The notes beneath the pieces were generated by a model, which did no database searches, was not told the origin of the DNA, and worked only from the letters and a program-made list of their open reading frames with translations. DNA of 64,000 nt, from the NCBI GenBank assembly GCA_017471045.1, contig JAFUWZ010000017.1, forward strand, positions 1-64,000, given 5' to 3'. Positions 12,051 through 39,153 of the stretch are shown here, piece by piece (the first letter of the stretch is position 1; every line of letters starts with the position of its first letter). A program made the position numbers and the translations under genes. This DNA is from Bacteroidales bacterium (GTDB taxonomy: Bacteria; Bacteroidota; Bacteroidia; Bacteroidales; UBA932).

Positions 12051-14021
12051 TTAGGAGCGGCGCCCGAAATCGGTGGTGCAGTTGTATTCGGGCACGGTCT
12101 CTTTCATCAGTTCGACCATCGCGGGGATATCGACGTCGCGCGCCAGCTGGATCATGCGGTGCAGCATGTCCTCGACGTCGGCGAACGCATAGGAACGCAC
12201 CTTGGCGACGCGGATGCGGGGGTGGAAGGAGGGGAGGGTGTTCTCCTCGTTGGCAAGGACCTCCTCGTAGAGTTTCTCCCCGGGCCGCAGGCCGGTGTAT
12301 TCGATCCGGATGTCCTGGTCGGGCTCGAACCCGGCGAGGCGGATCATGCGGCGCGCCAGGTCGTCGATCTTGACGGGCGTGCCCATGTCGAAGACGAAGA
12401 TCTGGTTGCCTTCGCCCATGGTGGCGGCTTCCATCACGAGGCGGCACGCCTCGGGAATGGTCATGAAGAAGCGGTTGATCTCCGGATGCGTGACGGTGAC
12501 GGGCCCGCCCTTGGCGATCTGCTCCTTGAAGCGCGGGATGACCGACCCGTTGCTGCCGAGCACATTGCCGAAGCGCGTCGTCACGAACCGCGTCGCCGGC
12601 TGCAGAGGCTGCGGGTGCAGGGAAGCATTCCCCGAAGGGATGCTATCCTGCTTCCCGTCGCCCGCAGCCTCTGCAGCCGCTGTCGCGAGGCCGAGCGACT
12701 GCACGTAGATCTCGGCGAGCCGCTTCGTGCACCCCATGATGTTCGTCGGATTCACCGCCTTGTCGGTCGAAATCATCACCATGCTCTCCGCCCCATACTC
12801 CAGACACTTGCTCGCCACATTCTGCGTCCCATATACATTGACCAGCACCGCCTCGCACGGATTCTCCTCCATCAGCGGCACATGCTTGTACGCCGCCGCA
12901 TGGAATACGATCTGCGGCCGGTGCGTCCGGAACGCGAAATCCAGCCGCTCCGGATGCCGCACGTCGCCGATGATCGGCACGAACCGCAGCTGCGGGAAAC
13001 GTTCCTCCAGCTCGAGCCGCAGATTGTGCATCGGCGTCTCGGCATTGTCGAAAAGGATCAGCTTGCCCACGCCGAAACCGGCGATCTGCCGACACAGCTC
13101 CGAGCCGATCGACCCCGCCGCCCCCGTGACCAGGACCGTCTTGCCCTGCAGGTGGCTGCTGATCGCATCCAGCGAAACATGGATCTCGTCCCGTCCGAGC
13201 AGGTCCTCGACCTTGATCTCCCGCGGGCGCAGGATCGCTTCCCCTTCGACCACCTCATCCACCATCGGGATGATCAGGCACTTGATGCCCTTGAGGCTGC
13301 AGAAATGGATCAGGCGGTCTTCTTCGTCCTGGGCCTCTTTCTCCGTCGGGAACAGGATCGCGTCGATCCGGTTGTCGATCAGGGTCTTTTCGACGGCCCC
13401 TTCGTCCTTGGGGCAGAAGACCGGCAGGCCCTCGATCTTGCGCCCTTCGGCCTGGCTGTCCAGGAAGCCGATGACCTTGTAATGCGGCGAGTTCTGCAGG
13501 CGCATGATCGTGGCGACGCTCTTGTCGGAAGTGCCGTAGACGATGACGCGCTTGTGCTCGTATTTTTCCTGGATGCGGCTGTTGAAGTGTTCCCAGACGC
13601 GGATCATCAGGATGCGGACAAAGACCAGGGCGGCGGCGGTGACAAACACGTCGAAGCTGGTCAGCAGCAGGGCCGTGCCAGAATACTGCTGAGCGGCCAG
13701 GATCACGCCAAACAGGAGCACTCCCTTGAGGAGGGAGGCCGAGGCAAAGACGGTCAGATCCTTGGCGGACAGCCGCCGGATGATGATACGGTAGGGCCGG
13801 AACACAAGGAACGCGATCGCCGAGGCAACTGCGGCCAGCAGGACGTAGGCAAACTTCTGCCGGGGCTCACCTACCGGGGATATCTGGTAGTGGCCGAAGA
13901 TGATGTCCGCAGCGAAGAGGACCAGGATGGAGGCCAGGACGGACAGGATCAGGTCCATCGTGACGATGAGGGTCCGGCTGAGGTAGCTTTTGTTGAGACG
14001 TTGGACGAGAGAACGAAGCAT
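12051..14021 (-). CDS. Membrane nucleotide-sugar 4,6-dehydratase (PglF/WbpM/CapD family)
   Basis: The protein has 656 residues. Four N-terminal membrane helices lead into a CoA-binding-like domain, then an extended SDR dehydratase domain with LVTGAAGSIGSELCRQI (NAD-binding glycine motif) and STDKAVNPTNIMGCTKR. The latter has Met in place of the usual catalytic Tyr, as in WbpM. It would convert UDP-GlcNAc to the 4-keto-6-deoxy sugar that starts acetamido-deoxyhexose synthesis. Residues about 447-475 (ATAAAEAAGDGKQD...) are an insertion absent from typical family members and correspond to a palindromic DNA element. The reading frame stays open across it. Confidence 0.9.
   Translation of the reverse strand: MLRSLVQRLNKSYLSRTLIVTMDLILSVLASILVLFAADIIFGHYQISPVGEPRQKFAYVLLAAVASAIAFLVFRPYRIIIRRLSAKDLTVFASASLLKGVLLFGVILAAQQYSGTALLLTSFDVFVTAAALVFVRILMIRVWEHFNSRIQEKYEHKRVIVYGTSDKSVATIMRLQNSPHYKVIGFLDSQAEGRKIEGLPVFCPKDEGAVEKTLIDNRIDAILFPTEKEAQDEEDRLIHFCSLKGIKCLIIPMVDEVVEGEAILRPREIKVEDLLGRDEIHVSLDAISSHLQGKTVLVTGAAGSIGSELCRQIAGFGVGKLILFDNAETPMHNLRLELEERFPQLRFVPIIGDVRHPERLDFAFRTHRPQIVFHAAAYKHVPLMEENPCEAVLVNVYGTQNVASKCLEYGAESMVMISTDKAVNPTNIMGCTKRLAEIYVQSLGLATAAAEAAGDGKQDSIPSGNASLHPQPLQPATRFVTTRFGNVLGSNGSVIPRFKEQIAKGGPVTVTHPEINRFFMTIPEACRLVMEAATMGEGNQIFVFDMGTPVKIDDLARRMIRLAGFEPDQDIRIEYTGLRPGEKLYEEVLANEENTLPSFHPRIRVAKVRSYAFADVEDMLHRMIQLARDVDIPAMVELMKETVPEYNCTTDFGRRS
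12597..12679 (-). repeat. In-frame palindromic element inside the dehydratase gene
   Basis: Two perfectly complementary 19-bp arms (12597-12615 and 12661-12679) enclose a second 8-bp stem (GGGAAGCA/TGCTTCCC on the minus strand). Its loop ends in CCCTTCGGGGAA. The core CCCTTCGGGGAATGCT is shared exactly with the palindrome at 39079-39153, while the outer arms differ. The element encodes about 28 residues between conserved dehydratase motifs, much like Rickettsia palindromic elements. Confidence 0.85.
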
Positions 14022-14041
14022 GTTACAGTCAGGCAGTTAGG

Positions 14042-14611
14042 TCATTTTTTCGAAGTAGTTGGGCCCGGGTCCGGGATCCTTTCCAGGAACGCTCCGGGTA
14101 TGTGGGAGACCGCGACGACGACGACGCCCTGGATGGCGACCAGCAGTTTGCGGTCCTTTTTGATGCGCTTGATGATGCCTTCCGCGCCTTTGAAGGGTCC
14201 TTCGGTGACGCGGACCCGTTCGCCGGTCTTGAAGTCGAAGCGGTCCCCGACGTATTCGAGGGCGGCGCCCTCTCCGGCGGAGGTGACCAGGATGAAGATC
14301 TCCATCTCCCGGTCGTCGATCGGGGCGGGTTCCATGCGGTCCGCCTGGCGGTAGAGCATCAGGTCGGAGAAGTGGTCCTGCTTGAAGCGGAGGAGCTCTT
14401 CGCGCGTGCAGCGGACAAACAGCAGCGACGGTGCCAGCTGGATCTGCCGGGTGACGAGGCGGCCGTTGACGCTTTCGTGGAGGGTCTTGACGGCCATATA
14501 GGTCCGGATGCCGCTGGCTTCGAGTTCCTCCTTGATACGCAGGATGCGGTTGTTGAAGACGCGCATCGCATACCAGCGGGGCCCGGCGTGTCGGGAAGAT
14601 CGTTCGGCCAT
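14042..14611 (-). CDS. upxY: UpxY-type NusG-like transcription antiterminator of the capsule locus
   Basis: NusG paralog that loads on RNA polymerase at a capsule promoter and prevents early termination in the long operon. The N-terminal NGN domain starts PRWYAMRVFNNRILRIKEEL. A C-terminal KOW domain is visible as TGERVRVTEGPFKGAEGIIK. I choose the ATG at 14611 (MAERSSRHAG, about 189 residues); the only longer start is a GTG at 14638. It is the first gene after the capsule promoter and leader, its usual position. No UpxZ inhibitor gene follows. Confidence 0.9.
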   Translation of the reverse strand: MAERSSRHAGPRWYAMRVFNNRILRIKEELEASGIRTYMAVKTLHESVNGRLVTRQIQLAPSLLFVRCTREELLRFKQDHFSDLMLYRQADRMEPAPIDDREMEIFILVTSAGEGAALEYVGDRFDFKTGERVRVTEGPFKGAEGIIKRIKKDRKLLVAIQGVVVVAVSHIPGAFLERIPDPGPTTSKK

Positions 14612-14638
14612 TTTCTCTGTGTTGTCAAAAGGGCACAC

Positions 14639-14786
14639 TTGGAGTGTCGGAGCCTCGCAAGTGTTTGCGCCCGACGCCCAGGGTCCATCTGCCTATGGCG
14701 GCGAAAAACGGCCGGCTTCCTTACCAGGAACCGGGACGTGGACCCTACGAGACTACGCGCGTGCAAAAAATAATAGTCCCGTAATG
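14639..14786 (-). promoter_or_regulatory. Capsule operon leader with inverted repeat, probable UpxY target region
   Basis: About 150-175 nt of untranslated leader separates the promoter from upxY. It holds an inverted repeat GGGTCCA/TGGACCC (14681-14687 and 14739-14745) with a GC-rich interior that can form a long hairpin. In Bacteroides the 5' leader of each capsule operon is needed for antitermination by its own UpxY. That this one acts the same way is inferred. Confidence 0.5.
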
Positions 14787-14815
14787 CAAAGATAACTAAA
14801 AAATGGGTTTGGCAA
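14787..14815 (-). promoter_or_regulatory. Capsule operon promoter (Bacteroidota sigma-ABfr type)
   Basis: On the minus strand, TATCTTTG (14787-14794) matches the -7 consensus TAnnTTTG and is preceded 18 nt upstream by TTG (14813-14815). No inverted repeats of the invertible-promoter type flank it inside the visible region, so phase variation by inversion is not supported. Confidence 0.7.
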
Positions 14816-14845
14816 GAGGGTCAGAAGCAGATTTCCCCCAAAATG

Positions 14846-15619
14846 CTAACGTTCTCCGTCCATGCGCTCACGCAACGCCTGCAGGGCGGCGGTCTCTTTT
14901 TTTGTCAGGACGGGGTCGGAGATGGCCCGCTGCCAGGGGGAGAGGCGGTGCAGGTCGGAGCCGAAACAGTCGTACAGGCCGTCCAGCAGCAGGTCGGAAG
15001 CCTTGTCGGCGGCGGTTTTGCCGTACATGCCGACAAGCGACATCAGGTTGAGCTGGAAACGGACGCCGGAATCCTTGAGGCGGGCGTAGTCCCGACGGCC
15101 CATGTAAACATAGCGTTCCGGGTGGGCCAGCAGGGGATGGAACCCTTTCTGCCGGATCTCGTCCAGGGTGTCCTCGAAGGCCATCGGAGGGCTGAAATAG
15201 GAAGTCTCGACGAGAAGGATTTCCCCGTCGGGGCCGGGGATGTCTTCGGGGCCTCCGATGGTGAGCAGGTCTCCCGCTTCGAAACGGTGGTCGAAGAGGG
15301 TGTCGATCATGTTCTCCGCCGCCAGGTGGAGGTGGATGGGGGACCCGGCCTGCGGGTCGCGGGCGGCTTCGTAGGCGGCCCGGAGCTCGGCGTAGCGCTG
15401 CCGCAGGGCGGCGGTCTCGTTGGGGACGTCTTCCATGATATGGGGCGTCAGCCAGACCTCCCGGATACCGGTCTGCTCGTAGAAGGCGAGGACTTCGAGG
15501 GAGGACTCCATCGTGCGGATGCCGTCATCGACGCCGGGAAGGATGTGGCAGTGCCAGTCGGTGGCGCCGCCGAGGACGCCGCTGTCGAGGATGGAATAAT
15601 GTTTGGTGAAGGGCCACAT
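14846..15619 (-). CDS. PHP-family tyrosine-protein phosphatase (CpsB/YwqE type)
   Basis: Manganese-dependent phosphatase that removes phosphate from the tyrosine tail of BY-kinases. The 257 residues carry the PHP metal motifs: DWHCHILPGVDDG near residues 22-34, LTPH, a later HPERY and GSDLHR. It sits upstream of the capsule operon, in the same direction but with its own promoter, and would regulate the Wzc-type kinase five kilobases away. Confidence 0.88.
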   Translation of the reverse strand: MWPFTKHYSILDSGVLGGATDWHCHILPGVDDGIRTMESSLEVLAFYEQTGIREVWLTPHIMEDVPNETAALRQRYAELRAAYEAARDPQAGSPIHLHLAAENMIDTLFDHRFEAGDLLTIGGPEDIPGPDGEILLVETSYFSPPMAFEDTLDEIRQKGFHPLLAHPERYVYMGRRDYARLKDSGVRFQLNLMSLVGMYGKTAADKASDLLLDGLYDCFGSDLHRLSPWQRAISDPVLTKKETAALQALRERMDGER

Positions 15620-15644
15620 CGCTACGCTGCCGTTTTTTGCCGTG

Positions 15645-15671
15645 CAAAGATAAGCATTTTTGTTATCTTTG
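15645..15671. promoter_or_regulatory. Divergent promoter pair for the phosphatase and hydrolase genes
   Basis: CAAAGATA at 15645-15652 is a minus-strand TATCTTTG box for the phosphatase gene. TATCTTTG at 15664-15671 is a plus-strand box for the hydrolase. The plus-strand box ends only 5 bp before the hydrolase ATG, so that transcript is predicted to be nearly leaderless. Confidence 0.65.
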
Positions 15672-15676
15672 TCACT

Positions 15677-16729
15677 ATGATGTTACGGGCTATATGCGCA
15701 GTGCTTCTCTCGCTGCAGGTCGGTATGCTCCCGCCGGCGCGGGTGGTCCGGCTGTATCCGGAAGGACAGGCGGCCGGCGGCGGGATCGTCGAGAACGGCT
15801 TGGAAATTTCGCGTGGGCCGGGCGAGATCACGCGGCCAGACACGACCGAATTCTACTGGCAGCGGGACGGGAGCCTCAATGCGGTCTCGGACAGCGCCCG
15901 GGTGGTGCTCTACTTGCCGCAGGGGTGCAACGGTCAGCTGATCCTGGTCTGCCCGGGCGGCGGGTACAATGAACTGATGTTCCGCAGCGAAGGAACCTAT
16001 GCGGCGCAGTGCCTGACGGAACGCGGCTACGCGGTCGGGATCGTCTGCTACCGGATGCCCGTGGGGCATGCGTCCGCCCCGCTGACGGACGTGCAGAACG
16101 CTTTCCGGTACTGCAGGCACCATGCCGGCGAATGGGGTATCACCCAGATCGGCGTGATGGGCATGTCGGCCGGGGGACATCTCGCAGCTTGCGCCTCGAC
16201 CCTGTACACAGACGAAGTGACGCGGCCGGACTTCACGATACTGTTCTACCCGGTCGTCTCGTGTGACACCGGCCTGATCCACCGCGGCTCTTTCCGCAAG
16301 CTGACCGGCCTTCCGGCCGACCTGATCACGGCTGCGGCGGCGCTGGGGGGAGAGGTTGGGAGTGGCTTCGGCGCTGGCCCGGATGCCGATTTCGCTGCCG
16401 CCGTTCCGACGGGCTATACGGTCGAAGACGTACGGGCGGCCCGCATGGTGCTGGAGCACTATTCTCCTGTACACAATATCACGGCTGACACCCCGCCGGC
16501 CCTCCTGTTCCACAGCGCCGACGACCGCGGCGTCCCCTACGCCAACAGTGTGTCATATTTTGACCGTCTCCGTACCGCCGGCGTTCCCGCCGAACTCCAC
16601 ATCTTCCCCTCCGGCGGCCACGGCTGGGGATTCAACACCCTGGAGACCGCCGGCCGCGACAAACTCGAGCCCTACCGCGCCACCTTCTTCTCCGCCCTCG
16701 ATGCCTTCCTGAGTTCCCTCCGGCCCTAA
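15677..16729 (+). CDS. Secreted alpha/beta hydrolase, acetyl-esterase-like
   Basis: The ATG at 15677 gives a signal peptide (MMLRAICAVLLSLQVGML) and about 350 residues. The fold shows CPGGGYNELM (oxyanion region), nucleophile GMSAGGH with Ser near 163, an acid in HSADDRGVP near 281, and His in SGGHGWGF near 315. This is the BD-FAE / acetyl-xylan-esterase-like family, which deacetylates glycans in gut Bacteroidota. The same frame stays open far upstream, but that is spurious because it crosses the phosphatase gene. Substrate is unknown, and no polysaccharide utilisation genes lie nearby. Confidence 0.8.
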   Translation: MMLRAICAVLLSLQVGMLPPARVVRLYPEGQAAGGGIVENGLEISRGPGEITRPDTTEFYWQRDGSLNAVSDSARVVLYLPQGCNGQLILVCPGGGYNELMFRSEGTYAAQCLTERGYAVGIVCYRMPVGHASAPLTDVQNAFRYCRHHAGEWGITQIGVMGMSAGGHLAACASTLYTDEVTRPDFTILFYPVVSCDTGLIHRGSFRKLTGLPADLITAAAALGGEVGSGFGAGPDADFAAAVPTGYTVEDVRAARMVLEHYSPVHNITADTPPALLFHSADDRGVPYANSVSYFDRLRTAGVPAELHIFPSGGHGWGFNTLETAGRDKLEPYRATFFSALDAFLSSLRP

Positions 16730-16774
16730 CGGACCGGCCAGGTTCATCTCAGAGTCGGGGGTAGGGAAAGGATG

Positions 16775-18562
16775 TCAGTCGAGCTTGAGGACGGCCATGA
16801 AGGCGGACTGGGGGACCTGGACGGTGCCGATCTGGCGCATGCGTTTTTTGCCTTCCTTCTGTTTCTCCAGGAGCTTCCGTTTGCGGGTGATATCGCCGCC
16901 GTAGCACTTGGCGGTGACGTCCTTGCGGACTTGCTTGACGGTCTCGCGGGCGATGATCTTGGCGCCGATCGCGGCCTGGATGGGGATGTCGAACTGCTGC
17001 CGGGGGATCAGGTCCTTGAGTTTGACGCACATCTTGCGGCCGAAGTCGTAGGCGTTGTCTTCGTGGATCAGGGACGAGAGGGCGTCGGCGGGTTCGCCGT
17101 TCAGCAGGATGTCCAGCCGGACCAGCCGGGCGGGCCGGTAGCCGGTGATGTGGTAGTCGAAGGAGGCGTAGCCGCGGGAGACGGTCTTCAAATTGTCATA
17201 AAAGCCAAAGACAATCTCGGAGAGGGGCATGTCATAGTTGAGCTCCACGCGGTCGGCCGTGATGAAGTGCTGGCCCACCAGGGTGCCGCGCCGGTCGAGG
17301 CACAGCTTCATGATCGCGCCGAAATAATCGGCCTTGGAGATGATCTGGGCGCGGATATAGGGCTCTTCGATATGATCAATCAGGGTCGGGGCGGGCATGC
17401 CCGAAGGGTTGTGTACATCCATGACTTCGCCCTGGGTCGTGTAGACTTTGTACGACACATTTGGTACGGTCGTGATCACGTCCATGTTGAATTCCCGGAA
17501 CAGGCGTTCCTGCACGATCTCGAGGTGCAGCAGCCCGAGGAAGCCGCAGCGGAAGCCCGACCCGAGGGCCAGCGAGGACTCGGGCTCATAGACAAAGGAG
17601 GCGTCGTTGAGCTGGAACTTCTCCAGCACGGCGCGCAGCTCTTCGAACTTGGAGGCATCGACGGGATACATGCCCGCGAAGACCATGGGCTTGACTTCCT
17701 CGAAGCCCGCGATCGCCTGGAGGCAGGCCGGGTCGGTGTGGGTGATGGTGTCGCCGACCTTGACTTCGGTCGCGCTCTTGATCCCGGAGATGATGTAGCC
17801 CACGTCGCCGCAGCCGATTTCGTCGCGCGGCTGGAGCCGCAGCTTGAGCACGCCGATCTCGTCGGCCTCGTAGTCCATGCCGGTGTTGAAGAACTTGACT
17901 TTGTCGCCTTTTTTCAAAGTGCCGTTGAAGATCTTGAAGTAGGCGATCACCCCGCGGAAGGGGTTGAATACCGAGTCGAAGATCAGTGCCTGCAGGGGCG
18001 CGGTCGGGTCTCCGCTCGGGGCCGGAATCTTTTCTACAATAGCGTCCAGGATGGGTGGAACCCCTTCGCCCGTACGGGCGGAAACTTTATGGACGTCTTC
18101 GGGATCGCAGCCGATGAGGTCGCAGATCTGGTCGGTGACGACATCGACTTGGGCGGCCTCCATGTCGATCTTATTCAAAATCGGGATGATCTCCAGGTTG
18201 TGGTCGATGGCAAGGTAAAGGTTGGAGATCGTCTGGGCCTGGATGCCCTGGGTGGCGTCCACGACGAGCAGGGCTCCTTCGCAGGAAGCGATGGAGCGGG
18301 AGACTTCGTAGGAAAAGTCCACGTGCCCGGGAGTGTCGATCAGGTTGAGCAGATACCGCTCCCCGTGGTAGAGGTATTCCATCTGGATCGCGTGGCTCTT
18401 GATCGTGATGCCTTTTTCGCGTTCGAGGTCCATGTCGTCAAGGACCTGGTTTTCCATATCACGGTCGCTCAAGGTGCTGGTCAGCTCGAGCAGGCGGTCC
18501 GCCAAGGTGCTCTTGCCGTGGTCGATGTGCGCGATGATGCAGAAATTGCGGATGTGTTTCAT
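16775..18562 (-). CDS. lepA: Elongation factor 4 (LepA)
   Basis: Ribosome-associated GTPase of 595 residues that back-translocates or remodels stalled ribosomes. GTPase motifs are [13 protein letters not shown] (residues 11-23), [12 protein letters not shown] and NKIDM. The LepA-specific C-terminal domain ends in KGKKRM-type basic sequence and [14 protein letters not shown]. Standard length and an unambiguous start. It is convergent with the hydrolase and divergent from the transketolase genes. Confidence 0.97.
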
Positions 18563-18582
18563 ATAGTTTTACCTTGTCATCT

Positions 18583-18613
18583 GCAAATATAATCGTTTTT
18601 TTTCGTAGCTTTG
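18583..18613. promoter_or_regulatory. Divergent promoters for lepA and transketolase
   Basis: CAAATATA (18583-18590) reads TATATTTG on the minus strand for lepA. TAGCTTTG (18606-18613) is the plus-strand -7 box for the transketolase operon. The two boxes are 15 bp apart, so the promoters overlap. Confidence 0.6.
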
Positions 18614-18616
18614 TAT

Positions 18617-18646
18617 GATGCGGCGCGAAAAGCGTCGCGCCGCATC
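18617..18646 (+). promoter_or_regulatory. Perfect 12-bp hairpin in the transketolase 5' leader
   Basis: GATGCGGCGCGA and TCGCGCCGCATC (18617-18628, 18635-18646) flank a 6-nt loop directly after the predicted transcription start. There is no U tract, so it is not a simple terminator. It could stabilise the message or act as an operator. Confidence 0.6.
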
Positions 18647-18678
18647 CGATTACATTCAAACACAACTTACATTTAAAT

Positions 18679-19524
18679 ATGGCAAACATCGAAAAATTGA
18701 CTGAAATCGCTTCGCAGGTGCGCAGGGATATCGTCAGGATGGTCGGTGCGGCCGGTTCCGGTCATCCGGGCGGCTCCGTCGGCAGCGCTGACATCATGAC
18801 TGCCCTCTTCTTCGAGGTGATGAAACAGGACCCCAGGACCTGGACGCGCAGCGCCAAGGGTCAGGATGCGTTCATTCTTTCCGCGGGCCATCTCGCCCCC
18901 GTGTATTATTCGGTTCTCGCAAGGGCGGGTTACTTCCCGAAGGAGGAGCTCGGCACGCTGCGCAAGTTCGGCAGCCGGATGCAGGGCCATCCCTCGACGG
19001 AGGCCGGCCTGCCCGGTATCTTCCAGCCTTCGGGCTCGCTGGGCCAGGGCCTTTCCGCCGCGGCGGGCATCGCGCTGGGCAAGAAGCTGGACGGCACTTC
19101 CGAGCGCGCGTATGTGCTCTGCGGCGACGGTGAGAGCGAGGAGGGCCAGATCTGGGAGGCCGCGATGTTTGCGGTCCACCACAAGCTCGGCAACCTCGTC
19201 GCGATGACGGACTGGAACGGGCAGCAGATCGACGGCCCGACCACGACGATCACCGCCATCGAGGCGCTGGACGCCAAGTGGACCGCCTTCGGCTGGAACG
19301 TGATCATCGCGGACGGGCATGATTTCACCTCGATCCTGAGCGCTTTCGACCAGGCAAAGACCAACATCGCCACGGAGCGCCCGACGATGATCCTCTTCAA
19401 GACGGAGATGGGCCACGGGATCGACTTTATGGCCGGTACGCACAAGTGGCACGGCAAGGCGCCGAAGCCGGAAGAGGTCGAGGCTGCGCTCGCACAACTG
19501 AAAGAGACTTTGGGGGACTATTAA
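18679..19524 (+). CDS. Transketolase, N-terminal (TPP-binding) subunit
   Basis: Pentose-phosphate pathway enzyme that moves two-carbon units between sugar phosphates. This 281-residue half holds GHPGGSVGSADIMTALF and the thiamine-diphosphate motif GDGESEEGQIWEAA...N. It is made as a separate subunit and completed by the next gene, 12 bp away, a split known in archaea and many anaerobic bacteria. The ATG at 18679 follows an A/T-rich leader. Confidence 0.95.
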   Translation: MANIEKLTEIASQVRRDIVRMVGAAGSGHPGGSVGSADIMTALFFEVMKQDPRTWTRSAKGQDAFILSAGHLAPVYYSVLARAGYFPKEELGTLRKFGSRMQGHPSTEAGLPGIFQPSGSLGQGLSAAAGIALGKKLDGTSERAYVLCGDGESEEGQIWEAAMFAVHHKLGNLVAMTDWNGQQIDGPTTTITAIEALDAKWTAFGWNVIIADGHDFTSILSAFDQAKTNIATERPTMILFKTEMGHGIDFMAGTHKWHGKAPKPEEVEAALAQLKETLGDY

Positions 19525-19536
19525 ATCTTGCGCATT

Positions 19537-20490
19537 ATGAAGAAATATATCGATACAGGCAAAATCGACACCCGCAGCGGTTTCGGCGCGGGTCTCCTCG
19601 AAGCCGGCAAGCAGGACAGCCGGGTGCTGGCGCTGACGGCGGACCTCAAGGGTTCGCTCAAGATGGACGCCTTCGCCAAGGAGTTCCCGGAGCGTTTCAT
19701 CCAGTGCGGCATCGCCGAGGCCAACATGGTCGGCGTGGCGGCCGGACTGGCCCTGACGGGCAAGATCCCGTTCTGCGGCAGCTTTGCGGAGTTTGTCTCC
19801 GGGCGCGTCTATGACCAGATCCGCCAGGAGGTGGGATACGGCCACACCAACGTCAAGCTGGCTTCTTCCCACGCGGGCGTGACCCTCGGTGAAGACGGTG
19901 CGACGCACCAGACGATGGAGGACGTCGCCCTGATGCGGGCGATCCCCGGCATGGTGGTGATCAACCCTTGCGACTACAACCAGACCAAGAACGCCACCAT
20001 CGCGGCGGCGAAATATGAGGGCCCCGTGTACCTGCGTTTCGGCCGTCCTTCCTGGCCCAACTTCACGGGTGCGGACGAGCCCTTCGAGATCGGCAAGGCC
20101 TATGTGATGAATGAGGGCACGGACGTGACGGTCGTCGCTTCGGGCCACATGGTCTGGGAGTCCCTGCAGGCGGCCGAGGCCCTGGAGGCCGAAGGGATCA
20201 GCGCGGAGGTGATCAATCTCGCGACGATCAAGCCGCTGGACGAGGCGACGCTCACGGCCTCAGCCGCCAAGACCCGTTGCGTCGTGGTGGCGGAGGAGCA
20301 CAACAGCGCCGGCGGCATCGGCGAACTGGTAGCCGGCGTGCTGGCCGCTTCCTGCCCCGTCCCGATGGAATTCATCAACGGCCGCGACCGTTGGGGGCAG
20401 TCCGGCACACCGAAGGAGCTGCTGGCCGCGTACGGTCTGGATGCGGCGCATATCGCCGAAGCCGTGCGCAAGGCGGTCGGCCGGAAATAA
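19537..20490 (+). CDS. Transketolase, C-terminal (pyrimidine-binding) subunit
   Basis: Second half of the split transketolase, about 317 residues. The Pyr domain reads KIDTRSGFGAGLLEAG and QCGIAEANMVGVAAGLAL, with the conserved catalytic Glu. A transketolase C-terminal domain follows. I choose the ATG at 19537 (MKKYIDTGKI); an upstream in-frame codon at 19528 would add MRI. A strong terminator follows. Confidence 0.94.
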   Translation: MKKYIDTGKIDTRSGFGAGLLEAGKQDSRVLALTADLKGSLKMDAFAKEFPERFIQCGIAEANMVGVAAGLALTGKIPFCGSFAEFVSGRVYDQIRQEVGYGHTNVKLASSHAGVTLGEDGATHQTMEDVALMRAIPGMVVINPCDYNQTKNATIAAAKYEGPVYLRFGRPSWPNFTGADEPFEIGKAYVMNEGTDVTVVASGHMVWESLQAAEALEAEGISAEVINLATIKPLDEATLTASAAKTRCVVVAEEHNSAGGIGELVAGVLAASCPVPMEFINGRDRWGQSGTPKELLAAYGLDAAHIAEAVRKAVGRK

Positions 20491-30001: not shown

Positions 30002-30004
30002 GGC

Positions 30005-30860: not shown

Positions 30861-32114
30861 ATGCAACAGTACATTGATTCCTACGATTTCGCCGGCAAGA
30901 AGGCGATCGTCCGCGTGGATTTCAACGTCCCGCTCAACGAAAACTTTGAGATCACTGATGATACCCGCATCCGGGCGGCCATCCCTACGCTCAAGAAAGT
31001 CCTCGAGAAGGGTGGAGCCTTGATCATCATGTCCCATCTCGGCCGTCCGAAAGGTGTGGATGCCAAGTTCTCCCTCAAGCACATCGTGGACCACGTCTCC
31101 GAGAAGCTCGGCGTACCCGTCCAGTTCGCGCCCGACTGCCAGAAGGCCGATGAGATGGCCGCTGCGCTGAAGCCGGGTCAGGCCCTGCTGCTGGAGAACC
31201 TGCGTTTCTACGCGGAAGAGGAAGGTAAGCCCCGCGGTCTCAAGGAAGATGCGACGGACGAGGAGAAGAAAGCGGCCAAGGCGGCCGTGAAGGAGAGCCA
31301 GAAGGCGTTCACCGCCAAGCTCGCTTCCTATGCCGACTGCTACATCAACGACGCGTTCGGCACGGCCCACCGCGCCCACGCCAGCACCGCCCTTATCGCC
31401 AAATATTTCCCGAATGACAAGATGTTCGGTTACCTGATGGAAGGCGAGATCAAGGCGATCGACAATGTCCTCAAAAATGCCGAGCGCCCGCTGACGGCCA
31501 TTATCGGCGGCTCCAAGGTGTCCTCCAAGCTCGCCGTCCTCAAGAACCTGGTCGGCAAGGTGGACAACCTGATCATTGGCGGCGGCATGGGATACACCTT
31601 CATCAAGGCCCAGGGCGGCCAGATCGGCCTGTCCCTGCACGAGGATGACCTCATCCCTGATGCCCTCGCGATCCTCGAGGCGGCCAGGGAAAAGGGTGTC
31701 AAGGTCTGCATCGCCCAGGATGCCGTCTGCACCCAGGAGTTCTCCAACGAGGCCCGGACGGAAGTCTTTCCTTCGACGGCCATCCCGGCCGACTGGGAGG
31801 GTGTGGATGCCGGTCCCGAGACGCTCAAGGGTTGGAAAGGCGTGATCGATTCTTCCAAGACCATCCTCTGGAACGGTCCCGTCGGCGTGTTTGAGATCCC
31901 GAAATTTGCCAACGGCACCCTGACGGTCGCGAAGGACCTCGCCGAAGTGACGGCCAAGGGCGCCTACACCCTGGTCGGCGGCGGTGACTCCGTCGCAGCC
32001 GTGACCAAGATGGGCTTCGCCCAGAAAGTAAGCTACGTCTCCACCGGCGGTGGTGCGATGCTCGAGGCGATCGAGGGCAAGGAACTGCCCGGCATCGCCG
32101 CCATCCGCGAATAA
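30861..32114 (+). CDS. pgk: Phosphoglycerate kinase
   Basis: Glycolytic enzyme making ATP from 1,3-bisphosphoglycerate, 417 residues. Signature [20 protein letters not shown] at residues 14-33, substrate loop SHLGRPKG, hinge and nucleotide motif [10 protein letters not shown], and C-terminal [19 protein letters not shown]. Full length; the start is set by ATG 30861 directly after the A/T-rich leader. Confidence 0.98.
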
Positions 32115-32130
32115 GCGATAAAGACAAGAT

Positions 32131-33015
32131 ATGAACCTGCTTCTCGTCCATTGGCACGTCGATCCCGTGCTCTTCCATATCGGGAGCCTGGAGATCCGCT
32201 GGTACTCGCTGCTCTTCGTGGCGGGATTCATCCTCGGCTGGTACATCTTCAAATGGTTCTTCAAGCGGGAGGGGATCCCGGAGAAACTGCTGGATCCGTT
32301 GCTGTACACCCTGCTGGGTGCGACCATCGTCGGTGCCCGCCTGGGTCACTGCTGCTTCTACCAGCCGGACTACTATTTCGGCAGCTGGCAGGGTTTCTGG
32401 GAGATCTTCATGCCGTGGAAAGGAGGTCTCGCGAGCCACGGCGGCGCCATCGCGCTGTTGCTGGCGATGTGGTGGTTTGCCCGTCACTATGGCAGGAAGC
32501 ACGATTTCGACTACCTCTGGATCATGGATCACCTGTGCATCGCCGTGGCGTTCGCAGGCTGTTTCATCCGCCTGGGCAATCTCTTCAATTCGGAGATCTA
32601 CGGCGATGTGACGAGCCTCCCGTGGGGCTTCATCTACGAACTGCGGGGTGAGACGGAGCCGAAGCATCCGACGCAGCTGTACGAGGCGTTGAGCTATCTG
32701 ATCCTCGGGCTGGTGATGGTCTGGATCTACTGGAAACGGCTGGACAAGGTCCACCGGGGCTTCTTCTTCGGTCTTTTCCTGGTGGGCTGCTTCGGGATGC
32801 GCTTCCTGATCGAGTTCATCAAGGAGCCCCAGGTCGGCTTCGAGGAGGGCATGGTGCTCAACATGGGTCAGCTCCTCTCGATCCCGTTCGTGATCGCCGG
32901 TATCGCACTGCTGGTCTATGCGGCGGTGACGAAGCGTCCGGCGCGGGCCGTTCACCCGGAGGAAACGCCAAGAAAGCAGGCGCCTACCCACTATGCAAAA
33001 AGTTTGCGTGGATAA
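32131..33015 (+). CDS. lgt: Prolipoprotein diacylglyceryl transferase
   Basis: First enzyme of lipoprotein maturation, moving a diacylglyceryl group onto the lipobox cysteine. 294 residues with seven predicted helices. Family sites are visible: GGLASHGGAIALLLAMWWFA (the H-G-G region) and RLGNLFNSEIYG (part of the Lgt signature). Many lipoproteins in this window depend on it. It lies 16 bp downstream of pgk, probably co-transcribed. Confidence 0.96.
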   Translation: MNLLLVHWHVDPVLFHIGSLEIRWYSLLFVAGFILGWYIFKWFFKREGIPEKLLDPLLYTLLGATIVGARLGHCCFYQPDYYFGSWQGFWEIFMPWKGGLASHGGAIALLLAMWWFARHYGRKHDFDYLWIMDHLCIAVAFAGCFIRLGNLFNSEIYGDVTSLPWGFIYELRGETEPKHPTQLYEALSYLILGLVMVWIYWKRLDKVHRGFFFGLFLVGCFGMRFLIEFIKEPQVGFEEGMVLNMGQLLSIPFVIAGIALLVYAAVTKRPARAVHPEETPRKQAPTHYAKSLRG

Positions 33016-33041
33016 TGAGTATGGTGTAATCTTTGTAGCAA

Positions 33042-33073
33042 ATCAGTGCCGCTTCTTCGGGAGCGGCACTGAT
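33042..33073 (+). terminator. 12-bp perfect hairpin between lgt and the efflux operon
   Basis: ATCAGTGCCGCT and AGCGGCACTGAT (33042-33053, 33062-33073) pair perfectly around a TCTTCGGG loop. It may end the pgk-lgt transcript, though the U tract is poor. A weak promoter-like TAATCTTTG at 33027-33035 lies upstream, so it could instead be a leader hairpin of the efflux operon. Confidence 0.55.
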
Positions 33074-33105
33074 GGTTAGTTATGTAGAAGGAAAGGTTGG
33101 TTTCT

Positions 33106-34584
33106 ATGAGGAAATATGTCCTGACGGCAGCATCCCTGCTGCTTCTGCTGCCCCTTGAGTCGGGGGCTCAATTCAAGGAAAAGGAGTTCGTGGATCCGGG
33201 CGGATCCAATCGGCTGGTGGACAAGACCGGCCTGTCGCAGGACCGGACGCTGGTTCTTACGCTCGAAGATGCGCTCAAGATCGCGCTCAGCGAGAACGTG
33301 TCTGTCAAGGTGGCAGACCGGGAGATCGAGCGCTCGCAATATGCCAAGCGGGGGACCTATGCGTCCCTGTTCCCGCAGATCGACGGTTCCGCGTCGTACC
33401 AGCGCACCATCAAGAAGCAGGTCATGTACATGGATTTCGACATGGGCGGCCTCTCCGGGATGGCGGCCGGCGGGGATGAGCAGACGGCGGCCGCCGAACT
33501 GCCCGGCGCCGGCAGCGGTTCCGCGATGAAGGACGGCTTCGAAGTCGGCCGGTGGAATACGTTCTCGGCCGGTGTTTCGGCCTCGATGCCGCTGATCAAC
33601 GCCCAGCTCTGGAAGAATCTCCAGATCGCGGGCCAGGATGTTGAGCTGGCTGTCGAGAAGGCGCGCTCCTCGCGCCTGTCGATGATCACCCAGGTCAAGC
33701 AGGCCTTCTACACGGTCCTGCTGGCCAAGGAGGCGGTCAACGTGTATCAGGAAGTCTATGACAATGCGCTCGAGAGTTTCACACAGACCGAGCGCCGCTT
33801 CAATGTCCAGAAGGCTTCCGAACTCGATTACAACCGGGCTAAGGCCACGGTCCAGAATGCGATCCCGCAGGTCTATGAGTCCGCCAATTCGGTGGCGCTG
33901 GGCCTGTGGCAGCTCAAGGCCGTGCTCGGGATGGACCTGGATACGGACATCGACGTCGCCGGGTCCTTGCAGGACTGGGCGGACCAGATGGTCTTCGATG
34001 TCGTGCCGGGAGATGAGGTCTCGCTGGACGACAACTCGACGATGCGCCAGCTCGCCATCCAGGCCGAGGAACTGGCCAATGCGGTCAAGATCCAGCAATA
34101 TGCCGCCCTGCCGAGCCTGGCGCTGAGCTTCAACTACAGCATCAATGCGATGACCAACGATTTCAATTTCAGCGAGTACCGCTGGTCGCCGTATTCGTTT
34201 GTGGGCCTGAGCCTGCAGATCCCGATCCTCGCCGGCGGGCGCCGCTACCACGCGGTCCGCCAGGCGCAGGTGCAGCGGGATGAACTGAACATGCAGCTGC
34301 GGGATACGGAGCGTCAGCTCCGGATCGCCATCCGGCAGTACCTCAGCCAGATGGAGACCAAGCTGAAGAGCTACCAGTCCGCGCAAGTGGCCGAGCAGAC
34401 GGCCCGCAAGGCCTACGAGATCGCACTCAAGTCCTACAACGTGGGCCGGAGTACGATCACGGACCTCAACAGCGCCCAACTCGCCCTGACCCAGGCGGAG
34501 CTTGGTATCTCGCAGGCGATCTACGACTTCGTGCTCGCCAAGGCCCACCTCGAAGAGACCCTGGGCCACGATTTTACGGAATAA
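33106..34584 (+). CDS. TolC-family outer-membrane efflux protein
   Basis: Outer-membrane channel of a tripartite RND pump. The ATG at 33106 (MRKYVLTAASLLLLLPLESG) gives a signal peptide and about 492 residues. Two OEP repeats are seen with typical helix-rich sequence, including LTLEDALKIALSENVSVKVA and LEVALKSYNVGRSTITDL-like C-terminal repeat ending. First gene of the four-gene efflux operon. Confidence 0.9.
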   Translation: MRKYVLTAASLLLLLPLESGAQFKEKEFVDPGGSNRLVDKTGLSQDRTLVLTLEDALKIALSENVSVKVADREIERSQYAKRGTYASLFPQIDGSASYQRTIKKQVMYMDFDMGGLSGMAAGGDEQTAAAELPGAGSGSAMKDGFEVGRWNTFSAGVSASMPLINAQLWKNLQIAGQDVELAVEKARSSRLSMITQVKQAFYTVLLAKEAVNVYQEVYDNALESFTQTERRFNVQKASELDYNRAKATVQNAIPQVYESANSVALGLWQLKAVLGMDLDTDIDVAGSLQDWADQMVFDVVPGDEVSLDDNSTMRQLAIQAEELANAVKIQQYAALPSLALSFNYSINAMTNDFNFSEYRWSPYSFVGLSLQIPILAGGRRYHAVRQAQVQRDELNMQLRDTERQLRIAIRQYLSQMETKLKSYQSAQVAEQTARKAYEIALKSYNVGRSTITDLNSAQLALTQAELGISQAIYDFVLAKAHLEETLGHDFTE

Positions 34585-34610
34585 TCCTCCCGATAATAAA
34601 GAAACGAAAT

Positions 34611-35654
34611 ATGAAACGGATTTTTCAATTTGGATGGATCGCAGTCGCGGCCGTGACGGTGGCTGCCTGCGCCGGTAAATCTTCGCAGAAAGCCTCCGAG
34701 CCCGCTTCGACGGCCTCCGCCGCTCCGGTCCAGGCAGGACCGGTCAAGGTCGAGACGGTCCTCGCTTCCGCGCGCGATGTCCCGCAGGACGAGACCTTCT
34801 CCTCCACGGTTCAGGCCTACGCGATCAACAACATCGTTCCGCAGACCGGCGGACGCATCAAGAAAATCAATGTTGAAGTGGGCGACTTCGTCCGTGCCGG
34901 CCAGGTGCTGGCCGAAATGGACGCGCTCAACCTCGACCAGGCCCGGCTCAAACTGGTCAACGACTCGACCGAGCTGTCCCGCCTGCGCACACTCTTCCAG
35001 GAGGGCGGCGTGTCCCAGTCCGACTTCGAACAGGTCGAGCTGGCCTATAAGGTCAGCAAGTCCCAGTATGACAATTTGTTAGAAAATACGGTCCTGCGTT
35101 CGCCCATCAGCGGCGTGGTCACGGCCCGCGGTTATGACAAGGGCGACATGTACGCCATGGCTTCTCCGATCTACGTGGTCCAGCAGATCACGCCGGTCAA
35201 GCTCCTGGTCGGCATCTCCGAGACGGACTACACCAAGCTGCACCGGGGCGACGCCGTGACCCTGACGGCCGATGCCCTGCCCGGCCGGGAATTCACCGGC
35301 AAGGTGGGCCGGATCTATCCCACGATCGACCCGGCTTCGCATACCTTCACCGCCGAGATCTTGGTGCCCAACAACGACCGGGCACTCCGTCCGGGCATGT
35401 ACGCCCGCGTGAAGGTGACCTTCGAAGTCAACCACAGCATCGTGATCCCGGATGCCGCCGTCGTGAAGCAGCAAGGCTCCGGCGTGCGCGTGGTCTATGT
35501 CGTCGGCCCGGACAATACGGTCGATCTCGTGGAGGTCAGGCCCGGTCGCCACATCGGCCGTGAGTATGAGATCCTGGAGGGCCTGTCCGAGGGTGACCGG
35601 GTGGTCGTCAAGGGCCATTCCACCCTGCGCAACGGGTCCCAGGTCACGTTTTAA
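34611..35654 (+). CDS. RND efflux periplasmic adaptor lipoprotein
   Basis: Membrane-fusion subunit linking the RND pump to TolC. 347 residues; lipoprotein signal with lipobox VAAC (Cys20). The barrel-sandwich hybrid is IVPQTGGRIKKINVEVGDFV and the second half is NTVLRSPISGVV-type; it ends with a membrane-proximal domain. 26 bp after the TolC gene. Confidence 0.92.
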   Translation: MKRIFQFGWIAVAAVTVAACAGKSSQKASEPASTASAAPVQAGPVKVETVLASARDVPQDETFSSTVQAYAINNIVPQTGGRIKKINVEVGDFVRAGQVLAEMDALNLDQARLKLVNDSTELSRLRTLFQEGGVSQSDFEQVELAYKVSKSQYDNLLENTVLRSPISGVVTARGYDKGDMYAMASPIYVVQQITPVKLLVGISETDYTKLHRGDAVTLTADALPGREFTGKVGRIYPTIDPASHTFTAEILVPNNDRALRPGMYARVKVTFEVNHSIVIPDAAVVKQQGSGVRVVYVVGPDNTVDLVEVRPGRHIGREYEILEGLSEGDRVVVKGHSTLRNGSQVTF

Positions 35655-35669
35655 GGGGGAGGCGCGCGT

Positions 35670-38600
35670 ATGAGTATCTATAGAAGTGCAGTCAACCATC
35701 CGGTCACGACGGCGCTGATCTTCATCGCTTTCATGATCTTCGGCATCTTCTCGCTGTCGAAGACCTCGATCGCGCAGTTCCCGGAGTTCGACGCCAACGT
35801 GATCATGGTGATGTCGTCCTATCCGGGTGCGAGTGCCGCGGATATCGAACAGAACCTGACCAAGACCCTGGAGAACTCGCTCAACGACGTGGCGAACCTC
35901 AAGAAGCTGAACTCCCGCTCCCGCGAGAACATCAGCCTGTTGACCCTGGAGTTCGAGTACGGCATTGACATCGAGGAGGCGACCAACGACGTCCGGGACA
36001 AGCTGGACATGGTCAATTCCCTGCTGCCCGACGGCGCTTCGGTGCCGGTCATCTTCAAGTTCAGCGCCGACGACATGCCGATCATGATCCTGTCGGCTAC
36101 GGCCGACGAGTCGCTGCCCGGACTGGACAAGATCCTGGACGACAAGGTGGCGACCCCGCTGGCCCGCGTCAACGGCGTGGGAACGGTCGGTATCAACGGT
36201 GCGCCGACGCGTGAGATCCAGGTCTATTGCGATCCCAACAAGCTGCAGGCCTACGGGCTGAGCGTCAGCACGATTTCCCAGGTCATCGCGGGGGAGAACC
36301 GCAACCTGCCTTCCGGCAACATCGACATCGGCTCCGAGACCTACAACCTGCGCGTGGAGAAGGAGTTCAAGGATCCTTCCGAGATCTTGGACATCGTCGT
36401 CGGCGCGGCCGGCGGACGCGCGGTCTATCTGCGCGACGTGGCCACCGTCCGGGACGGCAAGGAAGAGAAGGAGCAGGAATCCTATACCAACGGCGTCCGT
36501 TCCGCCGGCATCGTGATCCAGAAGCAGAGCGGCGCCAACACGGTCAACGTCATCCGGGGCGTCAAGGCGCAACTGGAGCGGATCAAGCCCACCCTCCCGT
36601 CCGACATCGAGATCGTGACGGTCGTGGACTCGTCCGACAACATCATCCATACGATCAACACCCTCAAGGAGACCATCCTGATCACCTTCCTGGTGGTCAT
36701 GCTGGTTGTTTTCCTCTTCCTCGGACGCTGGCGTGCGACCTTCATCATCGTCCTGTCGATCCCGATCGCGCTGCTCGCTTCGCTGGTCTATCTCTTCGCG
36801 ACGGGCAACACGCTCAACATCATCTCGATGTCGGCCCTGTCCATTGCCATCGGCATGGTCGTGGACGATGCCATTGTGGTGCTGGAGAATGTCTCGACCC
36901 ACTTGGAGCGGGGCGAGAAGCCCAAGGAGGCGGCTGTCCATGCGACGGGCGAGGTCGGCATTTCGGTCATCGCTTCTACCCTGACGATGCTCTGCGTCTT
37001 CCTGCCCCTGACGATGGTCAAGGGAATGGCGGGCCTGATGTTCAAGCAGCTCGGCTGGATCGTCAGCATCATCATGATCGTCTCCACGACGGCGGCGCTG
37101 ACCCTGGTCCCGATGCTGTGTTCGCGCATGCTGAAAGCCGGTCCCAAGACGGGCAAGCTGCACAATGCCATCTTCGGCCCCATCAATAAGGCGCTGGACG
37201 GCATCTCGCACGGCTACGCCCGCCTGATCGGATGGGCGACGTCGCACCGGACCCTCGTGATCCTGGTCTCGCTCGCGATCTTCCTGCTGACCGTCGCCAC
37301 GCTGGCTCCGGGCCTCAAGACGGAATTCTTCCCCTACAGCGACAACGGCCGGCTGCAAGTCTCCGTCGAGCTGCCGGTCGGCACGGCGCAGAGCGTGACC
37401 GCGGAGGTCGCGGAGCGCCTGTACGAGCGCATCACCGAAGCGATGCCGGAGATCGTGCGCCTGAGCTACACCTTCGGCCAGGCCGACTCTGACAATACCT
37501 TCGCTTCCATGCAGAACAACGGCACGCATGTGCTCTCGATGAACATCAACGTGGGCAGCATGGAGGACCGCAAACGGAGCACCGCCGAGCTGGCGGACGT
37601 GATCCGGGGGATCCTTGCCGACTTCCCGGAGATCCGGAAGGCCAATGTCACCGAGGGCGGGGGCGGCATGGGCGGCATGTCGAGCGTGGCCGTGGAGATC
37701 TATGGCTACGATTTCGAGACCACCGACCGGGTTGCGGCCGAGATCCGCGAGAAGATGGCCGCCGATCCTTCCTATACGCAGGCGATTGTCTCCCGGGACC
37801 AGTACACGCCTGAGTACCAGATGGATTTCGACCGTACCAAGCTGGCCATCAACGGACTCAACTCGAGCACGGCGGGCGCGGCTTTCAGCGCGGCGATGAG
37901 CGGATCGGTGACCTCCTTCTACCGGGAGGACGGCGAAGAGTACAACATCCGCGTGCGTTATGCGCCGGAATACCGCACCAGCATTGAGGACCTCGAAAAC
38001 ATCATCGTCTATAACCCGCAGGGGCGGGCGATCCGGATGAAAGAGCTCGGCTCCATCCGGGAGACCCGGGTCCCCCCGACCATCGAGCGCAAGGACCGTG
38101 AGCGCCTGATCACCGTGACCGGCATCGTGGCGCGGGGCAAAGCCCTGAGCGAGGCCGTCGAAGCGACGCAGCGCATCATTGATTCGTCGGATGTGCCGAC
38201 CGAGTTGTCGGTCGTGATCGCGGGCGACTATGAGGACCAGCAGGAGATGTTCTCCGACCTGATGCTGCTGATCCTCCTGATCATCATCCTGGTCTATATG
38301 GTGATGGCCTCACAGTTCGAGTCCTTCATGGCCCCGTTCGTCATCATGTTCTCCGTGCCGTTTGCCATCGTCGGCGTCCTGCTGGGCCTGCGGGCCACGG
38401 GCACGGCCCTCGGCATCATGGCGATGGTCGGCGTCATCATCCTGCTGGGCATCGTGGTGAAGAACGGCATCGTGCTGATCGACTATACGATCCTGTGCCG
38501 CGAGCGCGGGATGGGGATTGTGGAGTCTTCGGTCACGGCGGCCCGCAGCCGTCTGCGTCCGATCCTGATGACCACGCTCACCACCGTCCTCGGCATGCTT

Positions 38601-38783
38601 CCGATGGCGCTGGGCCGGGGCGAAGGATCGGAACTGTGGCGCGGCCTGGGCATGACGGTGGTGTGGGGCCTGTCGATCTCGACCTTGGTCACCCTGGTCC
38701 TGATCCCGACGGTGTACTGCACTTTTACGACCTGGCAGGAGCGGCGGAAAGCGAAAAAAACGGCTAAAGCGAATGTACGATGA
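35670..38783 (+). CDS. RND-family multidrug efflux transporter (AcrB-like)
   Basis: Inner-membrane proton-driven pump of 1037 residues with 12 helices and two large periplasmic loops. Proton-relay residues are present: GMVVDDAIVVLENV (Asp399/Asp400) and GIVVKNGIVLIDY (Lys931). The N terminus IYRSAVNHPVTTALIFIAFM is typical. Broad hydrophobe/efflux substrates are assumed from family. The stop overlaps the next gene in ATGA. Confidence 0.95.
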   Translation: MSIYRSAVNHPVTTALIFIAFMIFGIFSLSKTSIAQFPEFDANVIMVMSSYPGASAADIEQNLTKTLENSLNDVANLKKLNSRSRENISLLTLEFEYGIDIEEATNDVRDKLDMVNSLLPDGASVPVIFKFSADDMPIMILSATADESLPGLDKILDDKVATPLARVNGVGTVGINGAPTREIQVYCDPNKLQAYGLSVSTISQVIAGENRNLPSGNIDIGSETYNLRVEKEFKDPSEILDIVVGAAGGRAVYLRDVATVRDGKEEKEQESYTNGVRSAGIVIQKQSGANTVNVIRGVKAQLERIKPTLPSDIEIVTVVDSSDNIIHTINTLKETILITFLVVMLVVFLFLGRWRATFIIVLSIPIALLASLVYLFATGNTLNIISMSALSIAIGMVVDDAIVVLENVSTHLERGEKPKEAAVHATGEVGISVIASTLTMLCVFLPLTMVKGMAGLMFKQLGWIVSIIMIVSTTAALTLVPMLCSRMLKAGPKTGKLHNAIFGPINKALDGISHGYARLIGWATSHRTLVILVSLAIFLLTVATLAPGLKTEFFPYSDNGRLQVSVELPVGTAQSVTAEVAERLYERITEAMPEIVRLSYTFGQADSDNTFASMQNNGTHVLSMNINVGSMEDRKRSTAELADVIRGILADFPEIRKANVTEGGGGMGGMSSVAVEIYGYDFETTDRVAAEIREKMAADPSYTQAIVSRDQYTPEYQMDFDRTKLAINGLNSSTAGAAFSAAMSGSVTSFYREDGEEYNIRVRYAPEYRTSIEDLENIIVYNPQGRAIRMKELGSIRETRVPPTIERKDRERLITVTGIVARGKALSEAVEATQRIIDSSDVPTELSVVIAGDYEDQQEMFSDLMLLILLIIILVYMVMASQFESFMAPFVIMFSVPFAIVGVLLGLRATGTALGIMAMVGVIILLGIVVKNGIVLIDYTILCRERGMGIVESSVTAARSRLRPILMTTLTTVLGMLPMALGRGEGSELWRGLGMTVVWGLSISTLVTLVLIPTVYCTFTTWQERRKAKKTAKANVR

Positions 38784-39073
38784 AAGCGATCTTCATATCT
38801 TTCAACCAAGCTTATAACGACGAGATTGTCGAACTGTTGGAACGTCACGGCCAGCGTGGATACACCCGCTGGAACGACATCCTCGGCCGCGGCAGCGCTG
38901 ACGGTGAGCCACACTACGGCAGCCACGCCTGGCCGGTCCAGAACATGGCCATCCTCACGGTCGTCGAGGACGACCGGGTCGATCCCATCCTCGCGGACAT
39001 CGCCGAAACCGACCGCGCTTCCCTGGACCTGGGCCTCCGCGCCTTTGTCTGGGACATCACGGATCAGTATTGA
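38780..39073 (+). CDS. PII-like small protein coupled to the RND pump
   Basis: The protein has 97 residues, compact alpha/beta, beginning MKAIFISFNQAYNDEIVELL and carrying GEPHYGSHAWPVQNMAILTV. This is the PII-like fold family often found at the end of RND operons in Bacteroidota. The 4-bp ATGA overlap with the transporter gene implies coupled synthesis and a regulatory role on the pump, by analogy with GlnK-AmtB. Ligand unknown. Confidence 0.65.
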   Translation: MKAIFISFNQAYNDEIVELLERHGQRGYTRWNDILGRGSADGEPHYGSHAWPVQNMAILTVVEDDRVDPILADIAETDRASLDLGLRAFVWDITDQY

Positions 39074-39078
39074 AGCCT

Positions 39079-39153
39079 GGCCGCCGCACCACTCGGGGGG
39101 CAGCAGAAAGTTTTACCCCTTCGGGGAATGCTGCCCCAAGTGGTGCGGCGGCC
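39079..39153 (+). repeat. Intergenic palindromic element related to the one at 12597-12679
   Basis: The outer arms GGCCGCCGCACCACT and AGTGGTGCGGCGGCC (39079-39093, 39139-39153) are perfect 15-bp complements. The inner stem is GGGGCAGCA/TGCTGCCCC. The loop contains CCCCTTCGGGGAA. The core CCCTTCGGGGAATGCT is identical to the other copy. A direct repeat GCCTGGC (39075-39081, 39151-39157) borders the element and could be a target duplication or part of the arms. Confidence 0.85.

Follow-up and report, generated by a model that had tools for sequence, protein, structure and literature searches.

Small palindromic elements that lie in frame in unrelated protein genes without stopping them have been described in Rickettsia and Wolbachia (PMC10969869; PMC4224334). 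In the excerpts of the literature that underlie this and the other citations here, Rickettsia palindromic elements are ~150 bp long, form a sequence-conserved family with a conserved peptide (PMC10969869), and are said to lose the identity of their arms over time (PMC6649704). Repetitive extragenic palindromic (REP) sequences have a conserved stem with a GTAG or CGTC tag (PMC3733652). Repeat conversion and template switching were discussed for nematomorph repeats (PMC6649704), and a pair-type asymmetry was predicted for intrastrand template switching (PMC8794818). Here, we describe a family of palindromic elements found in a 64,000-nt stretch of a Bacteroidales genome (contig JAFUWZ010000017.1, positions 1 to 64,000; hereafter the window). 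The open-license literature describes protein-coding palindromes that insert into bacterial genes in Rickettsia and Wolbachia; the present family belongs to a Bacteroidales lineage, and no recognized report of such elements in Bacteroidales was found in that literature.

The window contains two copies, and both were confirmed as members of a dispersed, multi-copy palindrome family. Arm sequence changes over time, but the arms of any one copy remain complementary to each other, and most changes are paired. The copies were inserted whole, with both arms included, at sites where relatives have none. With some reservation, we favor the explanation that they are small non-autonomous mobile palindromes (~80 bp) in which template switching repeatedly rewrites one arm with the other as its template. 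The parts of the two copies were as follows.

12597..12679, minus strand: palindromic element copy 1, in frame inside the dehydratase gene
12650..12679, minus strand: 5′ arm of copy 1 (element orientation), CGGCTGCAGAGGCTGCGGGCGACGGGAAGC
12627..12649, minus strand: loop of copy 1, AGGATAGCATCCCTTCGGGGAAT, which holds the shared core
12597..12626, minus strand: 3′ arm of copy 1, GCTTCCCTGCACCCGCAGCCTCTGCAGCCG
12624..12639, minus strand: shared 16-base core of copy 1
12051..14021, minus strand: host gene of copy 1, a polysaccharide biosynthesis nucleotide-sugar dehydratase (Pfam Polysacc_synt_2, 656 aa, frame intact)
39073..39159, plus strand: palindromic element copy 2 (arms 39073-39104 and 39130-39159, loop 39105-39129)
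39117..39132, plus strand: shared 16-base core of copy 2, CCCTTCGGGGAATGCT

Each element comprises an arm of ~28–30 bp, a loop of 20–27 nt and a matching arm, ~80 bp in total. The 16-mer CCCTTCGGGGAATGCT, common to both window copies, had 7 exact matches in the 2.6-Mb assembly and 29 at ≤2 mismatches, compared with 4 for a reversed control, and ~20 of the 29 near-matches were convincing palindromes. A total of 60 copies were catalogued in three genomes: 21 in the genome of the window (G000), 17 in G095 and 22 in G188. This bore out the initial annotation, which had proposed a multi-copy family with a shared core. The catalogue consists of fetched loci with a pairing score ≥12; it is incomplete for every genome and, because of that score, biased toward well-paired copies. 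In 58/60 copies the 3′ end of the loop was CGGGGAAT. The three genomes are closely related, and most orthologous flanks shared ~78–92% nucleotide identity. The arms of the window copies, first reported as 19 and 15 bp pairing perfectly, turned out to be longer and less perfect: 30 bp with 3 mismatches in copy 1, and 27 matched and 2 mismatched positions with 1 gap in copy 2 (span ~39073-39159). Both folded much more stably than dinucleotide shuffles, with z −9.4 for copy 1 (12597-12679) and z −8.3 for the region of copy 2 (39070-39165).

The exact core CCYTTCGGGGAATGC was found 16 times in G000, whereas none of 36 other genomes of the genus had more than one match; G095 had 15 exact core matches. 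The search of relatives with a covariance model, which had been proposed as a check, yielded matches in 15/400 same-genus genomes at E 1e-5; up to 12 candidates were scored per genome, so that the counts for G000, G095, and G188 are lower bounds. Outside these three genomes, 20 of the loci matched in the remaining twelve were read, and 16 had a CGGGAAA-type core. The loop pattern TTTTACCN{1,3}TTCGGGGAATGC, searched in one genome per species, was matched in 7 contigs, one of which (L084) was a true copy by its fold. That contig is labeled 'uncultured Bacteroidales bacterium isolate SRR873603_bin.55'; its genome (G424) had 17 TTCGGGGAATGC matches (control 0) and was treated as G188, with which contig numbers and positions coincide. 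The same pattern, which copies with other loops escape, gave 0 matches in the viral contigs scanned. For six loci compared with Rfam 15, no match lay above the gathering score, and microRNA-hairpin matches occurred only below it. The sister subfamily with the CGGGAAA-type core (n = 19 copies) showed a between-copy arm identity of 76% (gapped) vs. 51% in the main family, and the self-matching of arms was about equal (92 and 93%, respectively). The short conserved core of the main family combines a small hairpin with GAATGC and probably serves for recognition or as a hairpin-priming loop.

Among the 60 copies, an arm shared 94% identity with its own partner and 44% with the arms of other copies, whereas identity was 26% in the flanks and 92% in the core. 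The statement that the arms differ in sequence between copies therefore held at the level of 44% likeness, but they were not wholly unrelated. Across 34 aligned copies, a weak consensus was still visible: GC at the inner end and, counting from 0, C at positions 4 and 5 and G at position 17 in 27/34. Paired cells in this alignment accounted for 94.3% vs. 59.8% after shuffling. In the long stem, 305 cells showed a two-sided change, 2 a one-sided change with pairing kept, and 50 a broken pair; because copies are related, these cells do not count as independent events. Overall, the 60 copies comprised 1608 Watson-Crick pairs, 56 A.C, 14 G.T, and 26 other mispairs, and the inner 26 pairs were perfect in 16/60 copies.

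Paired change was also seen within a fixed locus: in an orthologous intergenic copy of G000 and G095, 21 pairs were the same, 7 had changed on both sides and 0 were broken. By a simple count, the chance of this pattern under independent changes is about 4e-10. At the same site, comparison of G188 with either genome showed 12 pairs altered on both sides and 2 that were broken (ungapped). Two further orthologous pairs kept 16–17/28 pairs. Between copies of one genome, the nearest arm match, taken as the highest gapped identity in four arm comparisons, did not exceed 82%; for shuffled arms, the nearest match averaged 69% and peaked at 79%. The dehydratase insertion thus either came from a donor that is absent or not in the catalogue, or had its arms remade.

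The copy in the dehydratase was in frame and left the frame intact, as had been claimed. Between LGL/LSL and TRFV, the protein of G000 had 31 residues, and those of the close relatives G095 and G335 had 4 (STNE and AKKG, respectively). The segment is extra, as the earlier figure of ~28 residues implied, but its size is +27 residues vs. these relatives and +21 vs. the commoner 10-residue form, e.g., AIERGQREGR. The element was present at this site in 0/30 other genomes read there, in line with the expectation that orthologs lack the segment. The first set of 30 loci was made up of 1 own locus, 25 that were read and 4 unmatched by the search expression; in the second set, 5 were read of 6 fetched. 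The genomes read at the insertion site are a minority of the 97/400 in which the dehydratase was matched. Compared with the closest solved chain, that of the homolog WlaL (5bju), the extra residues fell at the same place (443 to 481 in the query, 176 to 185 in the chain). The insertion postdates the split of G000 and G095, unless it was precisely lost in G095. A different palindrome, TGTCATCCTGAGCGnAGCnAAGGATCT (peptide CHPERSKGSP) or a near variant, was observed in the same loop of the G308 dehydratase (L049) and at the linker of the G308 Mur ligase that holds the element in G000 (L332); G188 has it in its dnaX region (L109).

Called genes held 14/60 copies, 7 sense and 7 antisense, with in-frame insertions in loops or linkers of enzymes. 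Intact host frames encoded a Mur ligase (two copies) and DnaX, with the copy behind domain III, in G000; a phosphoglucomutase in G095; and a 3-dehydroquinase/EPSP synthase fusion, an alpha-amylase-family enzyme, and a GHMP kinase (two copies) in G188. Orthologous frames of all three relatives had a copy ahead of a DUF4434 domain, as assigned by Pfam for the G000 member. Two host frames were weak: one was GH65-like and ran to the edge of the retrieved sequence, and the other had no Pfam match. The peptide common to the coding copies was just short NPSGNA- or GEHSPKGS-like stretches. At the phosphoglucomutase site of the G095 copy, the element was missing in G274, G248, and G082. At the first Mur ligase site, match coordinates left 33 nt in G188 and 15 nt in G082 between the matched parts vs. 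63–64 codons in G000. A separate alignment of the Mur ligases was poor: G095 and G308 were the two rows that spanned the first site, and three others ended early. At the second Mur ligase site, G188 had a segment of comparable length that lacked the core, and this was not counted as an empty site. No target-site duplication of the type known from miniature inverted-repeat transposable elements (MITEs) was evident at the phosphoglucomutase and dehydratase sites, where diverged junctions could hide a short one. In the phosphoglucomutase of G000 (L324), there was a short extra stretch where G095 has the element, with a TGA within the matched region; it is possibly the scar of a lost copy.

The template-switch explanation would work as follows. 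A hairpin would fold on one strand during replication, and DNA polymerase would copy one arm off the other by intrastrand template switching ('quasipalindrome correction', as judged from end states). A mutation in one arm would thereby be erased or written into both, and double changes would thus arise directly. The arms were brought along rather than derived from the target, because they have a weak consensus and a fixed length, and sites were read without both arms. If an RNA from the core strand were selected, changes would pass through G-U, which was rare there, so copying fits better. The asymmetry predicted for template switching was found for G-C over C-G pairs (550 vs. 396).

Several observations argue against this explanation. 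The T-A over A-T part of the predicted asymmetry failed (193 vs. 297), and no correction event was caught in progress, the process being read from end states. In the coding trio, all 6/6 differing pairs between G095 L293 and G188 L239 were one-sided breaks, with 0 double changes, and coding copies had mispairs at 43/396 aligned positions vs. 53/1308 in intergenic copies. Homologous positions other than those above kept 10–14/28 pairs, compared with a mean of 10.8 for non-orthologous copies. These resemble separate insertions or deeply diverged copies; since the arms there were no more alike than those of unrelated copies, re-insertion at hot spots probably also occurs. Finally, the excess of A.C over G.T (56 vs. 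14) is not predicted by symmetric correction, and these mispairs are wobble on the opposite strand. Either the opposite-strand hairpin is selected, as for a single-strand transposase, or that strand is more exposed to mutation. In view of this excess, selection on the hairpin of the strand opposite the core seems plausible to us, though less likely than template switching. The original argument that pairing with variable arms indicates selection on structure was weakly supported, with 2 one-sided vs. 305 two-sided and 50 broken cells and no strand preference. We also rejected selection for a gene-strand RNA, as there was no orientation bias.

The placement of the intergenic copies brings in bidirectional transcription terminators or 3′-end hairpins as an explanation, in which both convergent transcripts need the hairpin and selection keeps the pairing; pairs must then stay Watson-Crick, since G-U in one transcript is A-C in the other. 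Among the 46 intergenic copies, 43 had both neighbors called, and 31 of these lay between convergent genes (6 ++, 5 −−, 1 −+), compared with 3/43 adjacent gene pairs in the window (codon-based gene calls). Many copies began 6–20 nt past a stop codon, and where G000 has the copy L009, G095 has a terminator-like 15-bp hairpin. However, 14/60 copies were inside called genes, a T run (≥4) followed the stem in just 2/46 intergenic copies and an A run preceded it in 4/46, and the A.C over G.T excess should vanish if both strands counted alike. Overall, we regard terminators as improbable. The absence of a bias toward the transcribed strand, both within genes (7 sense, 7 antisense) and between them (6 ++, 5 −−), counts in favor of template switching. 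The 15-bp hairpin of G095 (L177) is perfect, shares its outer arms with L009, lacks the core, and adjoins an inverted second element. In G188 (C40:10197-10319), two tandem copies (L103/L236) with unrelated arms lie ~108 bp apart where G095 has one.

A second alternative, to which we would give a small but real weight, is that these are repeats of the REP type, or of the type of REP doublets forming hairpins (REPIN), moved by a REP-associated tyrosine transposase (RAYT; Y1 HUH) that acts on one DNA strand; selection would then keep the arms paired because the hairpin of the strand opposite the core is its substrate. G000 has one RAYT-like gene, whose best homolog among the 400 genomes was in the copy-rich G188 (72%), and just 1/43 intergenic copies had a divergent-gene context. 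The mispairs on the core strand look as if the other strand must fold, because A.C there is G.T on the opposite strand. This excess (p 4e-7; 30 elements vs. 6) held in genes of both orientations (12 vs. 3 and 13 vs. 2) and in convergent intergenic copies (26 vs. 3), but the few codirectional intergenic copies had none (3 vs. 5). Moreover, in G095, with its 17 catalogued copies, the closest RAYT homolog was only 55% identical, and homologs occurred in 275/400 genomes, whereas the covariance model found elements in 15/400. The repeats flanking the RAYT of G000 also differ, with arms of ~14 bp and another sequence, and the likeness to the GTTTTACCCC loop was limited to some copies and was not seen in the 19 sister-subfamily copies. 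Mobilization by RAYT via GTTTTACCCC was weakened by the AGAAC-type loops of many copies and of the sister subfamily and by G095, which is without a close RAYT; a link between the elements and RAYT is not firmly supported. The gene in question (L030:1396-2259, contig C30 of G000) encodes a 287-aa RAYT-like Y1 transposase with alternating ~14-bp GGGACGnnGGGAGC repeats on both flanks. It is very improbable that the arms arose when the element inserted, through snap-back synthesis that duplicates the target flank in inverted orientation. In favor of this, the arms are unique and often perfect in each copy; against it, their length is fixed at ~28 bp, they have a weak family consensus, the arms of the sister subfamily are much alike between copies, and empty sites were read without both arms. 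The arm consensus and these empty sites led us to reject inverted target duplication as the source of the arms.

Extending the template-switch explanation, we speculate that the heritable unit is the core together with a rule, by which the second arm must be the reverse complement of the first, so that arm sequence would be free and self-complementarity inherited. New insertions would have arms unlike those of other catalogued copies and be kept near-perfect by hairpin-primed self-copying, possibly via a single-stranded hairpin of the strand opposite the core, with half of the element as template. We consider this extension doubtful. The concerted arms make the debated maintenance of hairpins by template switching measurable in 60 natural copies from three related genomes, some at orthologous sites. 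They are also a warning that strong covariation and few wobble pairs need not imply a functional RNA.

In the rest of the window, the neighbors of copy 2 were as follows.

38780..39073, plus strand: gene upstream of copy 2, 97 aa, whose TGA touches the arm
39214..39528, plus strand: gene downstream of copy 2, 104 aa, presumably a thioredoxin from its WCGPC motif

The first base of copy 2 is also the final base of the TGA that ends the upstream gene. A perfect 20-bp inverted repeat with a 4-nt spacer and without the element core was found at 54103-54146 between codirectional genes.

Compared with MITEs, the inverted repeats here are not shared between copies. Like REP/REPIN with RAYT, the elements are dispersed palindromes at gene ends in a genome with a RAYT-like gene; however, their arms are not conserved between copies and a firm tie to RAYT is lacking. 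Position counts over 34 copies revealed no conserved tetranucleotide at either outer end that would resemble the GTAG or CGTC tag as reported. The nematomorph mitochondrial perfect inverted repeats (PMC6649704) resemble the family in that their arms are kept identical, but both arms there encode conserved protein sequence, and a shared core is not described in the excerpt. Hairpins maintained by template switching (PMC8794818) share the multi-base compensatory changes and the copying of one stem strand off the other, although those described are in RNA genes and the repeats here are mobile.

The resemblance to Rickettsia palindromic elements noted in the initial annotation stood for in-frame insertion and fell short in length, conserved peptide and arm decay. 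It concerns layout and insertion behavior. As in the Rickettsia and Wolbachia elements described, small palindromes lie in frame in unrelated protein genes, and relatives are without them. The present elements differ in being ~80 bp rather than ~150 bp long, in conserving only the core, with arms 44% alike and a short common peptide, and in being mostly intergenic between convergent genes. Their arms stay self-matched, where loss of arm identity is reported for Rickettsia, but coding copies have more mispairs. The family thus works like the Rickettsia palindromic elements yet fails several of their features.

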